From Acidaminococcaceae bacterium (GTDB lineage: Bacteria > Bacillota > Negativicutes > Acidaminococcales > Acidaminococcaceae), in NCBI GenBank assembly GCA_029004715.1, contig JAQVYX010000011.1, forward strand, positions 1 through 33,112: 33,112 nt of DNA, given 5' to 3'. Below are positions 7,303-21,016 of the stretch, piece after piece. A model generated the notes under the pieces. It had not been told where the DNA came from and ran no database searches. It was given only the letters and a program-made list of their open reading frames with translations. Position numbers and translations under genes: made by a program. Numbering within the stretch: the stretch's first letter is position 1; each line of letters opens with the position of its first letter.

Positions 7303-8511
7303 TTATTTTTCACCTAAAGCAGCATCAACTTTTTGCCTAAAATATCCTTTGCTGCCAGTTTTATTTGTAGAATTTTTTTTCGCGGGATAGGAAGCTTTAT
7401 TTGCAGTATTAAGATTAGCAAGTAATTCATCGACGTTGTCATCGGCAGTAACTTGCATTATGGCTTCATCATTTAACCAAATGCGACCTTCACTAAAGGA
7501 AGCAAGGGGGTTTTGTATAGTTTTTTCATGATAAACTTTGGATAAGTTTCCTGCGATGAGATAAGCTCTTTCTAAAGTGCTAATGGAAGAGAGGGCGGCC
7601 GGAGTGCAAAAAACATGGTCATTAACGGTGATAAGACCATTTTTGCTATTTACTTTAACTTTATTGTTGCTATAGGAGGTAATTTTGGCATTATATTTAT
7701 CACGGCGTGCAATATTTCCGGGATGATCTGCAGGGTTAAAAATTTCACTAATAAAATTAGTATTGTTTTCTCCCATTTTTTCTAATACACGTTGCCAGGT
7801 GGCAGCTCCTGCACCTATGTTATAACCTGCAGCTTCAGTATATTGAAAAGCTTTTTCGTCAGCGGCTTTTTCCATAGGGAGGGTTACACTTTTGGCATTA
7901 CCTATATTAGCAATAACATTAGCACCTATAATGGAAACGGCATCAACATTTTGTGATTGGTACAGGGCAGCTAATACTTGTAGGGGGAGAGTTTTTTTTA
8001 CACCATTAGCAGGATCATTGTTTTGCCCATGTCCCATTTCGTGGGCAACAACAAGGGCAATTTCATCTTCGTTATAGTTCAATAAATCGAATAGGCCTAT
8101 ATTAACGCTTAGGTTATGGCCCAAAGTACAAAAAGCATTAAAGGTTTTTTCTTTGTTGACAAAATAATTGTAAGGTTTTTCTTGGATTGAGGGGTCAGTT
8201 TGTGCTATGGCTGCAGATAATCTTTGCATAATATCGTCAAGCATAGCATTAGCACGGGGTTCTTCACTAACGCCCACTTTTTCTTTAACTTGAGCAAGAT
8301 ATTTTTCGCGGCCTTTTTCGTCGTTATTTATATAATCTACTTGCTTGTTTAAATAGGCATATTGGGCACCTAGTCCTATAAGAGAGCCAAGAGCTGAAAC
8401 AGTATCAAAAGCTTCAGCTGGGCGCGGAGCTAATGCGCTTGTAGTAACAGTTATGCCAAGTAGCATACTTAAAGAGTAACATAAAAGTTTTTTGTGCATA
8501 ATAATTTTCAT
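7303..8511 (-). CDS. Secreted M48 family metalloprotease
   Basis: Signal peptide (LLCYSLSMLLGITVTTSALA); zinc motif VVAHEMGHG; downstream EKAADEKAFQY. Confidence 0.88.
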   Translation of the reverse strand: MKIIMHKKLLCYSLSMLLGITVTTSALAPRPAEAFDTVSALGSLIGLGAQYAYLNKQVDYINNDEKGREKYLAQVKEKVGVSEEPRANAMLDDIMQRLSAAIAQTDPSIQEKPYNYFVNKEKTFNAFCTLGHNLSVNIGLFDLLNYNEDEIALVVAHEMGHGQNNDPANGVKKTLPLQVLAALYQSQNVDAVSIIGANVIANIGNAKSVTLPMEKAADEKAFQYTEAAGYNIGAGAATWQRVLEKMGENNTNFISEIFNPADHPGNIARRDKYNAKITSYSNNKVKVNSKNGLITVNDHVFCTPAALSSISTLERAYLIAGNLSKVYHEKTIQNPLASFSEGRIWLNDEAIMQVTADDNVDELLANLNTANKASYPAKKNSTNKTGSKGYFRQKVDAALGEK

Positions 8512-9968: not shown

Positions 9969-10907
9969 GTGATTAAGATGAAAAACATTTTATTTTTAAC
10001 TACAGGTGGGACCATTGCTTGCGAAGAAACAGAAGAAGGTTTGATCCCTTCTTTGAGTGGGCAAGACCTTATAGAGCGTGTGCCGGAGATTAAGACTTTG
10101 TGCCAAATTACAGTTGCTGATGTTTGTAAATTGGACAGTAGTAATCTGCAACCTGAGAATTGGAGTAAGTGGGCCAAACTAATTGGTGATAATTATACTA
10201 AATATGATGGTTTTGTTATTACTCATGGTACAGATACAATGGCTTATACTAGTAGTGCCTTAAGCCACATGCTTGTTAATTTGGGCAAACCGGTAGTGCT
10301 TACAGGCTCACAAGTACCAATTAATTTAGCCAATTCTGATGCGCGCAGTAATTTAGAGTTAGCATTTACTATAGCTAGTAGTAATCTTGCCGGAGTGTTT
10401 ATTGCTTTTGGCAACAAGGTAATTAAAGGAGATTGCGCAAAGAAAATTTTTGCTAAAAATTTTAATGCTTTTGAGAGCATTAATGAAACACCGGTTTTGT
10501 TTTTTGATAAAACAGGTATAAAGAAAAATCTTCCTTGTGGGGAGGTTTTAGGAGAATTCAAGGTAGAAGAAAAGTTAGACCCTAGAGTTATGGCCATCAC
10601 TATTACCCCAGGGCTAAGGCCGGATATTATTGATTTTGCCGTAGCCCAAGGTAATAAGGGGATTGTTCTAGAATGTTTTGGCGCAGGAGGAGTGGATACT
10701 GCTACAAATAATTTTCTTCCCGCTATAAAACGTGCTATTCATAAAGGGGTCCGTGTTGTTTGTGTAAGTCAGTGCTTATTTGATGGCGTTGATTTAACGT
10801 TATATCCTATGGGCATTTTGGCAGCTCAAGCTGGTGTGGAATCAGGTGGTTTAATGACGTTAGAAGCGGCTTTAACTAAGCTAATGTTTGTCTTAGCAAA
10901 TGAATAA
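9969..10907 (+). CDS. Asparaginase
   Basis: FLTTGGTIACEETEEGL and VITHGTDTMAYTSSALS asparaginase signatures. Confidence 0.9.
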   Translation: MIKMKNILFLTTGGTIACEETEEGLIPSLSGQDLIERVPEIKTLCQITVADVCKLDSSNLQPENWSKWAKLIGDNYTKYDGFVITHGTDTMAYTSSALSHMLVNLGKPVVLTGSQVPINLANSDARSNLELAFTIASSNLAGVFIAFGNKVIKGDCAKKIFAKNFNAFESINETPVLFFDKTGIKKNLPCGEVLGEFKVEEKLDPRVMAITITPGLRPDIIDFAVAQGNKGIVLECFGAGGVDTATNNFLPAIKRAIHKGVRVVCVSQCLFDGVDLTLYPMGILAAQAGVESGGLMTLEAALTKLMFVLANE

Positions 10908-10921
10908 AAGGAGGAATATTT

Positions 10922-11122
10922 ATGCCATACGTAAATATTAAAATTACTAAAGAAGGAAAGGTAACCGCAGAGCAAAAAGCAGCCTTGATTAAAGGGGCAA
11001 CACAATTGTTGGCGAATGTTTTGCATAAAAACCCAGCTACAACTGTAGTTATCATTGAAGAAGTAGATACTGATAACTGGGGAATTGGCGGGGAAAGTGT
11101 TACAGAGCGTAGAAAGCTTTAA
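10922..11122 (+). CDS. 4-oxalocrotonate tautomerase family protein
   Basis: 66 aa; MPYVNIKITKEGKVTAEQKAALIKGATQLL with catalytic Pro after Met; KNPATTVVIIEEVDTDNWGIGGES. Confidence 0.9.
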   Translation: MPYVNIKITKEGKVTAEQKAALIKGATQLLANVLHKNPATTVVIIEEVDTDNWGIGGESVTERRKL

Positions 11123-14351: not shown

Positions 14352-14454
14352 TATTTGTGTTAAAATAACATAGTAGATTATTAAAAGATATTATCCAACA
14401 ACCAATATATTGATTTCTCTTGGTAATTAAAGCAGGAGGGTGGAGGATGCTACT

Positions 14455-15507
14455 ATGGATGTAAAAGCACAGGCACAAGATTTTATTGAGAAATGGGTTT
14501 TTGAAGATTCGAAAAAAGTAAAAATAGCATTTTTTGGACAGCCAGGAGCAGGAAAGTCTTCTCTCATTAATGAATTAGTAGGGAAAAATGTAACCGCAAC
14601 AGGTAATATGACGGATACCACTAAGACAGCACAAATAATTGAACATAATGAAGTGCTTTTTGTAGATTTACCGGGATACGATACAAGTGAATTTCCTGCT
14701 AACAAATATTTTAATAGCTTTAATCCTTTGCAATATGATTTGTTTGTCTGCGTATTCAATGAAAAGTTGCAGGAAGCAGATAAAGTATTTTTTAAAATAT
14801 TACAACAAGCAAAGCGACAATGTATTTTCGTACGTAATAAAGCAGATGGAATATATGATAACCAGAAATCATTAGCGGAATTACAGGTGGAAATCACTGA
14901 TGATATTTGCTGGCAATTGACCGATACGGTTAAAGTTTTGTTTACTTCTTGCAAACAAACACTTCCGATAGAGCAAAGAGGTATTGCCGCTTTGCAGGAA
15001 GAAATAATTTTTCGTTTAGAGCCGGCTTTAGGTGATAAATTTTTGCGTAATGTGAGAGCATATAGTCAAGAGATTTTAGTGCAAAAAAAACAAGAGACCA
15101 TAAAAGCCATTAATAAAGCAATGCTTATAGCTGCTGGTAATGGCTTAAATCCTATATTTGGCGTAGATATGGGTATTGATGCTAAAATAATGAGCATGAT
15201 GTATGAACGCATTCGCAAATCATTTGCTATAAGCGAGGAAGAAATAACAAAGGGAAGCGCAACAGATAATATGTTGCAGCTTATAGCAAGGGGCGTAAAA
15301 AAAGAAACAATTACTAAAGGTTTAAAAAAAATAATGACCAAGGAAATGCAAGAGAGATTAGTTAAATACATACCAATTATGGGACAACTTGTTTCTGTGG
15401 GTTTGGGAGCAGGTACTATGTATTATTTAGGGGTGGAATATACAGAAGCATGTTTTGCCTATGCTAAAAAAAGGTTGGAAACAGAAATAAAATTGAGGGT
15501 ACAATGA
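14455..15507 (+). CDS. IRG/p47 (IIGP-like) GTPase, copy 1
   Basis: G1 GQPGAGKSS, G3 DLPGYDTSEFPANKYFNSFNPLQYDLF, FVRNKAD G4; C-terminal helical region NGLNPIFGVDMGIDAKIMSMMYERIRKSFAISEE. ATG 14455 preferred by SD spacing over GTG 14440. Confidence 0.75.
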   Translation: MDVKAQAQDFIEKWVFEDSKKVKIAFFGQPGAGKSSLINELVGKNVTATGNMTDTTKTAQIIEHNEVLFVDLPGYDTSEFPANKYFNSFNPLQYDLFVCVFNEKLQEADKVFFKILQQAKRQCIFVRNKADGIYDNQKSLAELQVEITDDICWQLTDTVKVLFTSCKQTLPIEQRGIAALQEEIIFRLEPALGDKFLRNVRAYSQEILVQKKQETIKAINKAMLIAAGNGLNPIFGVDMGIDAKIMSMMYERIRKSFAISEEEITKGSATDNMLQLIARGVKKETITKGLKKIMTKEMQERLVKYIPIMGQLVSVGLGAGTMYYLGVEYTEACFAYAKKRLETEIKLRVQ

Positions 15508-16541
15508 CCGGATATAAAGCAGAGCTGAGGGAAAAAATTGCAAAAATTGTTCAAGAGAAAGTGAAAATAGCTTTTTTTGGACAACCGGGTGCGGGCAAAT
15601 CCAGCACAATTAACGCTATTTGTGGTGCTGAAGTTGCTAAAGTTGGTGTTACGACTGATACTACGCGAGATGTGCAGATTATCAAATATGGCGAAGTAAT
15701 ATTTGTGGATTTGCCGGGGTATGGAACTTCTAGATTTCCCCAAAATGAATTTTTTACTAAATTCAATCCTTTGCAGTATGATTTGTTTGTTTGCGTATTT
15801 GCCGGTAAATTGCATGAGGCTGATACGAAGTTTTTTCAGGAGTTAAATAAAAGAGGAAAACCTTGTATTTTTGTGCGCAATAAAACAGACGAAATATATG
15901 ATGAGGGAAAAACGCTTGAGCAATCTCAAGAAAGCATTCGCCAGGATGTTGCAAGACAGCTAGGTACATCAGAGATTGTTTTACAGTTTATTTCTGCTAG
16001 AGGTGATATGCACAGTGGCATAGAAGCTTTAAATGCATGCATTACCTCGAAAATGGGTGCAGCACGCAAAGAAAAATATATTATGGCCGTCAAAACGCAG
16101 ACCAAGGAACATTTACAGCAAAAAAGAGCTTTGGCTATTAAATATGTTAGCCGTAGTGCAAAATTTGCGGCAGTAAATGGTTTAAATCCTATATTGGGCG
16201 TAGATTTTGCTATTGATATAACGATTATTTATAATATGTATGAAGAAATTCGTCAGATTTTTGCCATAGATGAAAAAAATGTGGGTAAAAGCACATTAAC
16301 TACAGGTCTCAAGAATTATTTACTAAAAGGTATGAGTAAAGAAGGTATAGCTATAATTCTAAAATCTGTAACACAAAAAATTGCTGCTAGATCAATGCTT
16401 AAATATATACCGTTAGTAGGCCAGGCGGCTACTGTTTACGTAGGACATAAAATAGTAGAAAAGGCAGGAGAAGACTATGTAAGAGCTTGTTATCAAGTGG
16501 CAGAAGAAGAACTCTTGGATGACCTAAAACTGCAAAACTGA
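15504..16541 (+). CDS. IRG/p47 (IIGP-like) GTPase, copy 2
   Basis: Paralogue of the preceding gene (KVKIAFFGQPGAGKSS, VDLPGYGTSRFPQNEFFTKFNPLQYDLFVCVF, CIFVRNKTDEIYD, VNGLNPILGVDFAID); 4-bp ATGA overlap. Confidence 0.75.
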   Translation: MTGYKAELREKIAKIVQEKVKIAFFGQPGAGKSSTINAICGAEVAKVGVTTDTTRDVQIIKYGEVIFVDLPGYGTSRFPQNEFFTKFNPLQYDLFVCVFAGKLHEADTKFFQELNKRGKPCIFVRNKTDEIYDEGKTLEQSQESIRQDVARQLGTSEIVLQFISARGDMHSGIEALNACITSKMGAARKEKYIMAVKTQTKEHLQQKRALAIKYVSRSAKFAAVNGLNPILGVDFAIDITIIYNMYEEIRQIFAIDEKNVGKSTLTTGLKNYLLKGMSKEGIAIILKSVTQKIAARSMLKYIPLVGQAATVYVGHKIVEKAGEDYVRACYQVAEEELLDDLKLQN

Positions 16542-19925: not shown

Positions 19926-20612
19926 TCATTTTTTTTGCTTAGCATAAGATACGCCTCCGTTTTGCATATATTCCTTTATTTTAAGAAAAGTTGCTTGGTT
20001 CGTAATTAAATTGACATTGTCATTTTTTAATATTTGGGTGTCACCTCTGGGATATATAATTTTTCCGTTACGGAGCACCGCGGCAATAACGCTTTCTCCC
20101 GGTAGTTCTAAATCTCTGATGAAGCAATTAAGCCAACGGCTTTTTTCATCTACGCTAACTTCAACGAGAATCATAGCTCCGCGGTCAAATGTTTGTACAA
20201 TTTTGCAAATATCACTATCGAATTCATATTCAATCAAATTGGCAATAACTTCAGTACTGCATACGGTTTGATTTACTCCTAAGGCCTTAAACATAGAGAT
20301 ATTCTTAGGATAATTTACTCTGGCGATGGACTTATTAATTTGAAATTCCATTTTGGCAATTTGGCATATAACCAGATTTTCCTCGTCTTTGCCGGTTACA
20401 GCCGCAATAATATCGGCATTATTAATTCCGGCATCATTTAAAACAGCTAAATCACTTCCATCTCCACATATTATATCGGCATCAAGATCATTTGCGATTT
20501 TCCGACAAACATTTTCATCTTTTTCAATTAGCGTTACATTATAACCGCGTCCTTTTAGTGTTTTTAGTAGGTTGGAACCTATTTTACCGCCACCAATAAT
20601 AATCGATTTCAT
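19926..20612 (-). CDS. trkA: TrkA family NAD-binding potassium uptake protein (RCK_N + RCK_C)
   Basis: MKSIIIGGGKIGSNLLKTLKGRGYNVTLIEKD Rossmann motif; 228 aa with C-terminal RCK_C-like region. Confidence 0.85.
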   Translation of the reverse strand: MKSIIIGGGKIGSNLLKTLKGRGYNVTLIEKDENVCRKIANDLDADIICGDGSDLAVLNDAGINNADIIAAVTGKDEENLVICQIAKMEFQINKSIARVNYPKNISMFKALGVNQTVCSTEVIANLIEYEFDSDICKIVQTFDRGAMILVEVSVDEKSRWLNCFIRDLELPGESVIAAVLRNGKIIYPRGDTQILKNDNVNLITNQATFLKIKEYMQNGGVSYAKQKK

Positions 20613-21016
20613 TTTAACGTTTCCTCTATTCTGCTTTTTAGTATGTATACGCTCAGTTCTGTTGGATTGATAGTCTCAATTCCCAGCCCATCATACACCG
20701 GCTTTTTTTTTGGATTATTGATTCTTGCTATGATTCTAGGTACTTTAAAAATTTTTTGGGCGATAAGGGCTACTGTAATATTGATATTGTCATCAGAAGT
20801 AGCCGAAATTATATAATCAGCATGCTTAATTCCGGCTTCCAAAAGAACATCGTTATCAAATTCAATGCCTTTTATGCGCAGTCCATTGAATCCACTTCCA
20901 AGAGTATCAAGATTTTTAGCCTCCCGGTCGACAATAGAAATATTATAGCCGGCATCTGATAAGTCCTCTGCTAGCATACTTCCTAGCCTTCCGCAGCCAA
21001 TAATAATTATATACAT
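20609..21016 (-). CDS. TrkA-N domain-only protein
   Basis: MYIIIIGCGRLGSMLAEDLSDAGYNISIVDRE; 135 aa, RCK_N only; 4-bp overlap with trkA. Confidence 0.85.
   Translation of the reverse strand: MYIIIIGCGRLGSMLAEDLSDAGYNISIVDREAKNLDTLGSGFNGLRIKGIEFDNDVLLEAGIKHADYIISATSDDNINITVALIAQKIFKVPRIIARINNPKKKPVYDGLGIETINPTELSVYILKSRIEETLK

Follow-up and report, generated by a model that had tools for sequence, protein, structure and literature searches.

The closest solved relatives of the gene pair described here are the vertebrate IRG GTPases (p47 GTPases; IIGP, PF05049; Irga6, IRGB6, IRGB10, and GM4951), which match it over nearly the whole length. These mouse immunity GTPases attack parasite vacuoles. 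Irga6 forms a head-to-head G-domain dimer and acts on membranes in a dynamin-like manner (PMC4774019), and Irgb6 directly deforms membranes (PMC9504060). In the IRG-type G domain, a large hydrophobic or aromatic residue replaces Gln61 of Ras (PMC1297648). Bacterial dynamins mostly occur as gene pairs and are hetero-oligomeric; Cj-DLP1/2 tether membranes as a hetero-tetramer (PMC6104087). DynA, which supports the membrane, delays lysis by phages (PMC8844932). In 2005, a survey by Bekpen and co-workers pointed out IRG-reminiscent bacterial sequences, most strikingly in cyanobacteria, although kinship could not be demonstrated from sequence (PMC1297648). We found no later study of bacterial IRG-like pairs in the open-access literature.

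The window, which is the whole stretch of 33,112 nucleotides of Acidaminococcaceae DNA that was analyzed, contained two IRG-like genes, designated A and B, with the following features.

14455..15507, plus strand: gene A, IRG-like GTPase of 350 aa (P0001), ending with TGA
15504..16541, plus strand: gene B, IRG-like GTPase of 345 aa (P0002)
15504..15507, plus strand: ATGA stop/start overlap of A and B
14434..14446, plus strand: Shine-Dalgarno-like stretch AGGAGGGTGGAGG 5' of gene A, read from the sequence
15019..15504, plus strand: C-terminal helical/DUF697-like domain of A
16056..16538, plus strand: C-terminal helical/DUF697-like domain of B

The sequence-only reading of this DNA had described two paralogous GTPases of about 350 aa that overlap by ATGA and share a series of motifs, and all of these were found in the open reading frames at 14455-15507 and 15504-16541. 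For gene A, ATG at 14455 was preferred over GTG at 14440 as the start codon, based on GGAGG located ~8 nt upstream and on the family alignment. The two proteins showed 44% identity over 346 columns. Gene A encodes GQPGAGKSS (G1), DLPGYDT (G3), and NKAD (G4), and gene B encodes GQPGAGKSS, DLPGYGT, and NKTD at the same positions; common to both were GQPGAGKSS, DLPGYxTSxFPxN, FNPLQYDLFVCVF, FVRNKxD, and NGLNPIxGVDxxID...MYExIR. The GTPase site (P-loop, DxPG, and NKxD) was intact in both proteins, and both have Tyr, a large residue, where Ras has the catalytic Gln, as in IRGs. Orthologues of A and B in other Acidaminococcaceae genomes kept the gene order and mostly the ATGA overlap as well; the 4-base overlap was also observed in L003, L039, L040, L042, L043, and L044. 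We infer that A and B are translationally coupled via this overlap.

Pfam IIGP was the top family for both proteins; their scores of 58.8 and 74 bits exceeded its cut-off of 24 bits, which places the observation far beyond chance. All 21 family members tested matched IIGP at E <0.01, and D/E-x-PGY was present in 44 of 44 aligned sequences. Like IRGs, A and B have DLPGxxT/S-x-FP, a hydrophobic residue in place of Ras Gln61, and FVRxKxD. When B alone was searched against the PDB, mouse Irga6 and IRGB10 ranked first. A profile of 21 relatives matched IRGB10 over positions 11-343 (E 1.5e-28, 103 bits), followed by IRGB6 and Irga6, compared to 70 bits for Der; a broader profile gave 117 (IRG) versus 87 bits. 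The matches began near residue 60 of the IRG chains. With the G domain only as query, IRGB10 scored 82.5 and Der 74.4 bits, indicating that the G domain alone hardly separates IRG from Der. The C-terminal half raised the scores of IRGB10 and IRGB6 by ~20 bits and that of Irga6 by 13 bits, whereas Der gained nothing. Two sequences initially taken for distant relatives (L004 and L005) proved to be Der and HflX, low-scoring IIGP matches in G042 and G299 belonged to a different GTPase family upon inspection, and such low-scoring matches in other Bacillota were few and weak.

The G-domain scores bear on the explanation that A and B are ordinary cytosolic GTPases of the Era/Der/YihA type, which act on ribosomes or RNA and resemble IRGs in the G domain only. 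Era, Der, and EngB (TRAFAC Era-like) have the same G-domain fold and motifs as A and B, and the NCBIfam equivalogs Era, Der, YsxC, and HydF matched them within the G domain, with E ~1e-15 for Era and Der. However, the Era, Der, and EngB equivalog scores did not exceed 58.6 bits, far below cut-offs of 116-307, and full-length profiles and structural models clearly favored IRGs. A and B have no KH, other RNA-binding, or second G domain, and their C-terminal domain is unrelated to Era, Der, and EngB. The occurrence of the family is also patchy, unlike that of ribosome factors. The curated cut-offs and the full-length comparison ruled out an Era/Der/YeeP-type identity, and we regard a role on ribosomes or RNA as very improbable.

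AlphaFold2 models of A and B were built from five sequences and showed mean pLDDT values of 71 and 76, respectively, with weak stretches in the helical domain. In Foldseek searches of the PDB, the first 37 (A) and 38 (B) ranks were all occupied by the IRG family (IRG proteins or GM4951), with TM scores up to 0.65 (A) and 0.57 (B) over ~340-390 columns. EngB, matching by its G domain only, showed TM scores of 0.37-0.39, and mitofusin and IniA ranked below all IRGs (TM <0.42). A viral structure library gave matches at the level of the G domain only. The high rmsd (7-12 Å) shows that the models differ from IRGs in how the domains are oriented or in the weaker helical part. At full length, the C-terminal helical domain appeared to match that of IRGs in register. 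Only one short helix of ~15 residues precedes the P-loop in the models, so that most of the N-terminal part corresponding to helices αA-C of IRGs is absent. Unlike IRGs (~410 aa; TKxD), A and B are bacterial proteins of ~350 aa with NKxD, a modular DUF697-like C-terminal domain, and an arrangement as an overlapping tandem pair. This side-by-side arrangement resembles that of the paired bacterial dynamin-like proteins (Campylobacter DLP1/DLP2, LeoA/LeoBC, Bacillus DynA, and Nostoc BDLP), and the PADLOC models of LeoA/LeoBC matched the G domain of all family members. However, bacterial dynamin-like proteins are longer and have long trunk and neck helical bundles and a paddle, whereas A and B have only ~160 residues after the G domain, and the dynamin-like proteins did not outrank IRGs in the fold search.

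The C-terminal domain is mostly helical and contains two hydrophobic segments, NPxxGVDxxID, and YIPxxGQ. A strong transmembrane helix was looked for in A and B and not found, the highest 19-residue hydropathy values being 1.26 and 1.37. Pfam DUF697 (PF05128) remained below its cut-off (19.1 versus 27.7 bits for B) but was matched by 12 of the 21 members at E <0.01 (best, 7.5e-7), and the motifs NPxPGxDxxxD and P-x-x-G-Q were common to DUF697, stand-alone domain proteins, and A/B. These matches suggest that the domain is probably a diverged DUF697 relative. As to homology with helices F-L of Irga6, the full-length profile gained 13-21 bits for IRGs relative to the G domain alone and the fold match spanned the length, whereas the C-terminal profile by itself found no IRG by sequence; its matches were short TALE repeats, which were judged spurious, and this domain alone was rejected as proof of IRG membership. 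Thus, the C-terminal motif block that had been taken as a mark of IRGs is common to both proteins, but it is DUF697-like and not specifically of the IRG type. The IRG resemblance as a whole held in Pfam, in the PDB profile search, and in the fold comparison with Der, Era, and EngB as controls, with IRGs favored over Era-type GTPases at full length, but the N-terminal bundle was mostly lacking. Because of these missing helices, and because the C-terminal domain alone finds no IRG, we use the term "IRG-like" instead of "bacterial IRG".

The C-terminal domain is modular, since it is homologous to stand-alone proteins (hhalign probability 99.7, E 4.5e-27) that, unlike A and B, have no GTPase domain. 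Such proteins of 160-210 aa (L082:4902-5444, L081:5995-6483, and L090-L095) were observed in Staphylococcus, in front of ptsH, on a Chimaeribacter plasmid, and in Selenomonadaceae, and stand-alone versions were present in eight Negativicutes genomes that have no full-length copies. No separate GTPase gene was located beside the stand-alone gene in six loci examined. In L095, this gene lies behind that of a large FIST-domain histidine kinase. The sequence OR845008.1 (L082), labelled Staphylococcus phage SA 1306 Kay, carries ptsH-ptsI and looks like host chromosome.

Full-length members were present in 34 of 381 Negativicutes genomes, and 23 of these 34 carriers had a tandem pair. Within Acidaminococcaceae, the family of the window, 15 of 59 genomes had members, including all nine of genus g5 and both of genus g1. 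Phylogenetic analysis showed that A and B form two sister clades and that the members of a second kind of pair, C and D, form two others, all well supported; A/B arose in Acidaminococcaceae and C/D in Selenomonadaceae. Trees in which A and C, or A and D, were forced together were rejected (AU p ~0.0003). These results indicate at least two origins of tandem pairing, provided that the tree is not misled by gene conversion. A single ancient duplication behind both pairs was rejected by the same test, although gene conversion within pairs could mimic this result. One Acidaminococcaceae genome (G226) has a C/D pair, which suggests transfer between the families. The Asp of NKxD, the GTP-specificity motif, was lost in all seven C proteins, whereas NKxD or a near form was kept in A, B, and most D proteins. 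One C/D pair (L052:8025-12594) apparently lies within a pyrimidine operon, in the order pyrK-like, DUF4145-like, pyrD-like, C, D, pyrF-like, and pyrE-like. Another tandem pair of small GTPases (330-350 and 230 aa) was also observed in Negativicutes (L059:7322-9085 and L060:6536-8254); it is of the GATGxGKSST...DSPGLGDG type and is not IRG-like.

These distributions bear on whether A and B act together. They could be products of a tandem duplication that function independently, by gene dosage or as subfunctions, without a hetero-complex. Consistent with this, the A/B duplication is confined to Acidaminococcaceae in our sample, the G motifs are kept in both copies, and single-copy relatives exist in g16 and g81. 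However, both copies and their order were kept in 13 of 13 A/B genomes, pairing evolved again as C/D, and the 4-base overlap was present in most A/B pairs; we therefore consider independent products rather unlikely. It had been asked whether the pair was merely a lineage-specific duplication with no conserved linkage. The duplication was indeed lineage-specific, but the linkage was strongly conserved. The pair is a conserved unit, and related tandem pairs arose independently.

The conserved surroundings of the pair include two further genes of the window.

9969..10907, plus strand: asparaginase (ancestral synteny; here, pantothenate-type genes lie between asparaginase and A)
7303..8511, minus strand: M48 peptidase, likewise part of the conserved neighborhood in the family

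Asparaginase immediately precedes the pair in most g5 genomes as well as in L003 and L037; the distance is ~13 bp in L003 and in several g5 genomes, where the M48 peptidase lies on the other side of asparaginase. The linkage of A/B to asparaginase and M48 is old and conserved. The neighbors of the window pair were metabolic (pan genes, asparaginase, GT9, and Trk), and no defence genes were noticed around it. A promoter and terminator scan gave promoters no more frequently than in shuffled sequences. The dN/dS ratio of A/B was ~0.07-0.17, indicating purifying selection, which in most comparisons was weaker than that on metabolic genes. Between two g1 species, A/B showed 66-68% identity, panB, panC, and panD 84-87%, and a panE-like gene 68%. 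Rapid evolution as an immune signature was rejected, since the panE-like gene was equally low and, in g5, the pair resembled a neighboring M20-type peptidase. As side observations in the window, a TrkA-like protein is split into two overlapping genes of 228 and 135 aa (19926-21016), located between TrkH and a sensor kinase/regulator pair, and a 66-aa frame after asparaginase (10922-11122) is probably a real small gene because it is 92% identical in a sister species.

This setting is consistent with a housekeeping pair for membrane maintenance, which, like Campylobacter DLP1/2 or Bacillus DynA, would tether and seal the inner membrane of stressed cells and would have no specific link to phages. 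Every sampled g1 and g5 genome carries A/B, in a conserved position close to asparaginase and M48, the dN/dS values carry no arms-race signature, the vicinity has no noticed defence genes, and paired dynamin-like proteins with a proposed role in membrane repair are known (PMC6104087). On the other hand, with any copy in only 15 of 59 genomes of the family and absence from most genera, the pair is not essential, and relatives have been picked up as cargo by phages and lie within a BREX locus. A housekeeping role of this kind is possible, and we hold it tentatively.

The relatives in defence contexts were few and mostly diverged (31-36% identity), and their numbers are raw counts. On a plasmid of Deinococcus sp. 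QL22, an IRG-like trio was located inside a BREX locus, between pglZ and a DarT/NADAR module, on the opposite strand. Its members are a possible nuclease of 515 aa, which matches an HsdR-N-like domain weakly, an IRG-like GTPase that scores 75.9 bits with IIGP, and a second GTPase of 234 aa, in which a segment near the N-terminus is hydrophobic and G4 is degenerate. This BREX locus (L079:6341-9729; L088:4483-22749, NZ_CP097151.1) has two nested modules, namely a DarT1-NADAR toxin-antitoxin-like pair and the three-gene IRG-like cassette on the opposite strand. IRG-like genes were also observed in environmental phages.

L067:4914-6020, antisense: phage IRG-like gene
L068:1190-2291, antisense: phage IRG-like gene

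In both phage contigs (IMG/VR), the gene lies antisense between the tail tube and tail assembly chaperone genes. Rhodobacter and Nostoc phages related to them have these two tail genes directly adjoining, with 12 bp and no bp between them. This insertion is a cargo-gene pattern; the copy in L068 appears frameshifted. Furthermore, in G226, Septu ptuA/ptuB (E 5e-148 and 2e-100) is located 4 kb downstream of the C/D pair, and in G686, a pair lies on a contig with DUF932, RadC, ERF, and Api92-like genes.

These contexts would fit a dedicated anti-phage system that detects infection at the membrane and then kills the infected cell or permeabilizes it, as a functional equivalent of vertebrate IRGs. 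The BREX-nested trio with its possible nuclease and membrane-anchored GTPase, the phage-borne copies at one junction in two phages, the Septu genes near the C/D pair of G226, and the mobile-element contig of G686 point in this direction. However, none of them concerns the A/B clade of the window, and the counts are small and raw; we consider such a dedicated system unlikely for A and B. The suggested role in defence thus found its support in the context of distant relatives (phage cargo, BREX, and Septu), whereas the window pair itself has metabolic neighbors. Defence is plausible for the family but unproven for the window pair. We infer that phage defence is likelier for the mobile relatives and that membrane maintenance is as likely for the window pair.

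Taken together, we favor, at a probability of roughly 0.45, the reading that A and B form a hetero-oligomeric, membrane-acting, IRG-like pair of the dynamin/septin-type superfamily, with cell-autonomous protection as the most likely family-wide use. A and B would dimerize across their G domains as a hetero-pair, and the hydrophobic segments of their C-terminal domains may bind the inner membrane. The pair would assemble with GTP, and hydrolysis would then reshape, seal, or disrupt the membrane, presumably triggered by membrane damage or invasion. Regulation of one partner by the other is probable, given that C/D pairs have one member without the guanine-specificity motif. Across the family, the protection would most likely be directed against phage or envelope attack, and the Acidaminococcaceae pair may now serve a stable chromosomal function.

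The A/B family may represent the bacterial equivalent of a family of immune proteins in animals. The question of IRG origin becomes testable, because the bacterial profile and IRGs align over almost the entire length and the models retrieve IRGs first. It is conceivable, though we doubt it, that IRG-like pairs constitute an undescribed form of cell-autonomous defence in bacteria. An active GTPase would then assemble on a membrane with a regulatory partner that is sometimes degenerate, and the vertebrate IRGs, with active GKS and regulatory GMS proteins, would descend from or parallel this system. The recurrent tandem pairs, one kind with a degenerate partner, offer a compact system for the mutual regulation of IRG-type GTPases. 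Should the phage-cargo and BREX contexts reflect defence, IRGs would be added to the animal immune proteins, such as cGAS and viperin, that have counterparts in bacteria.
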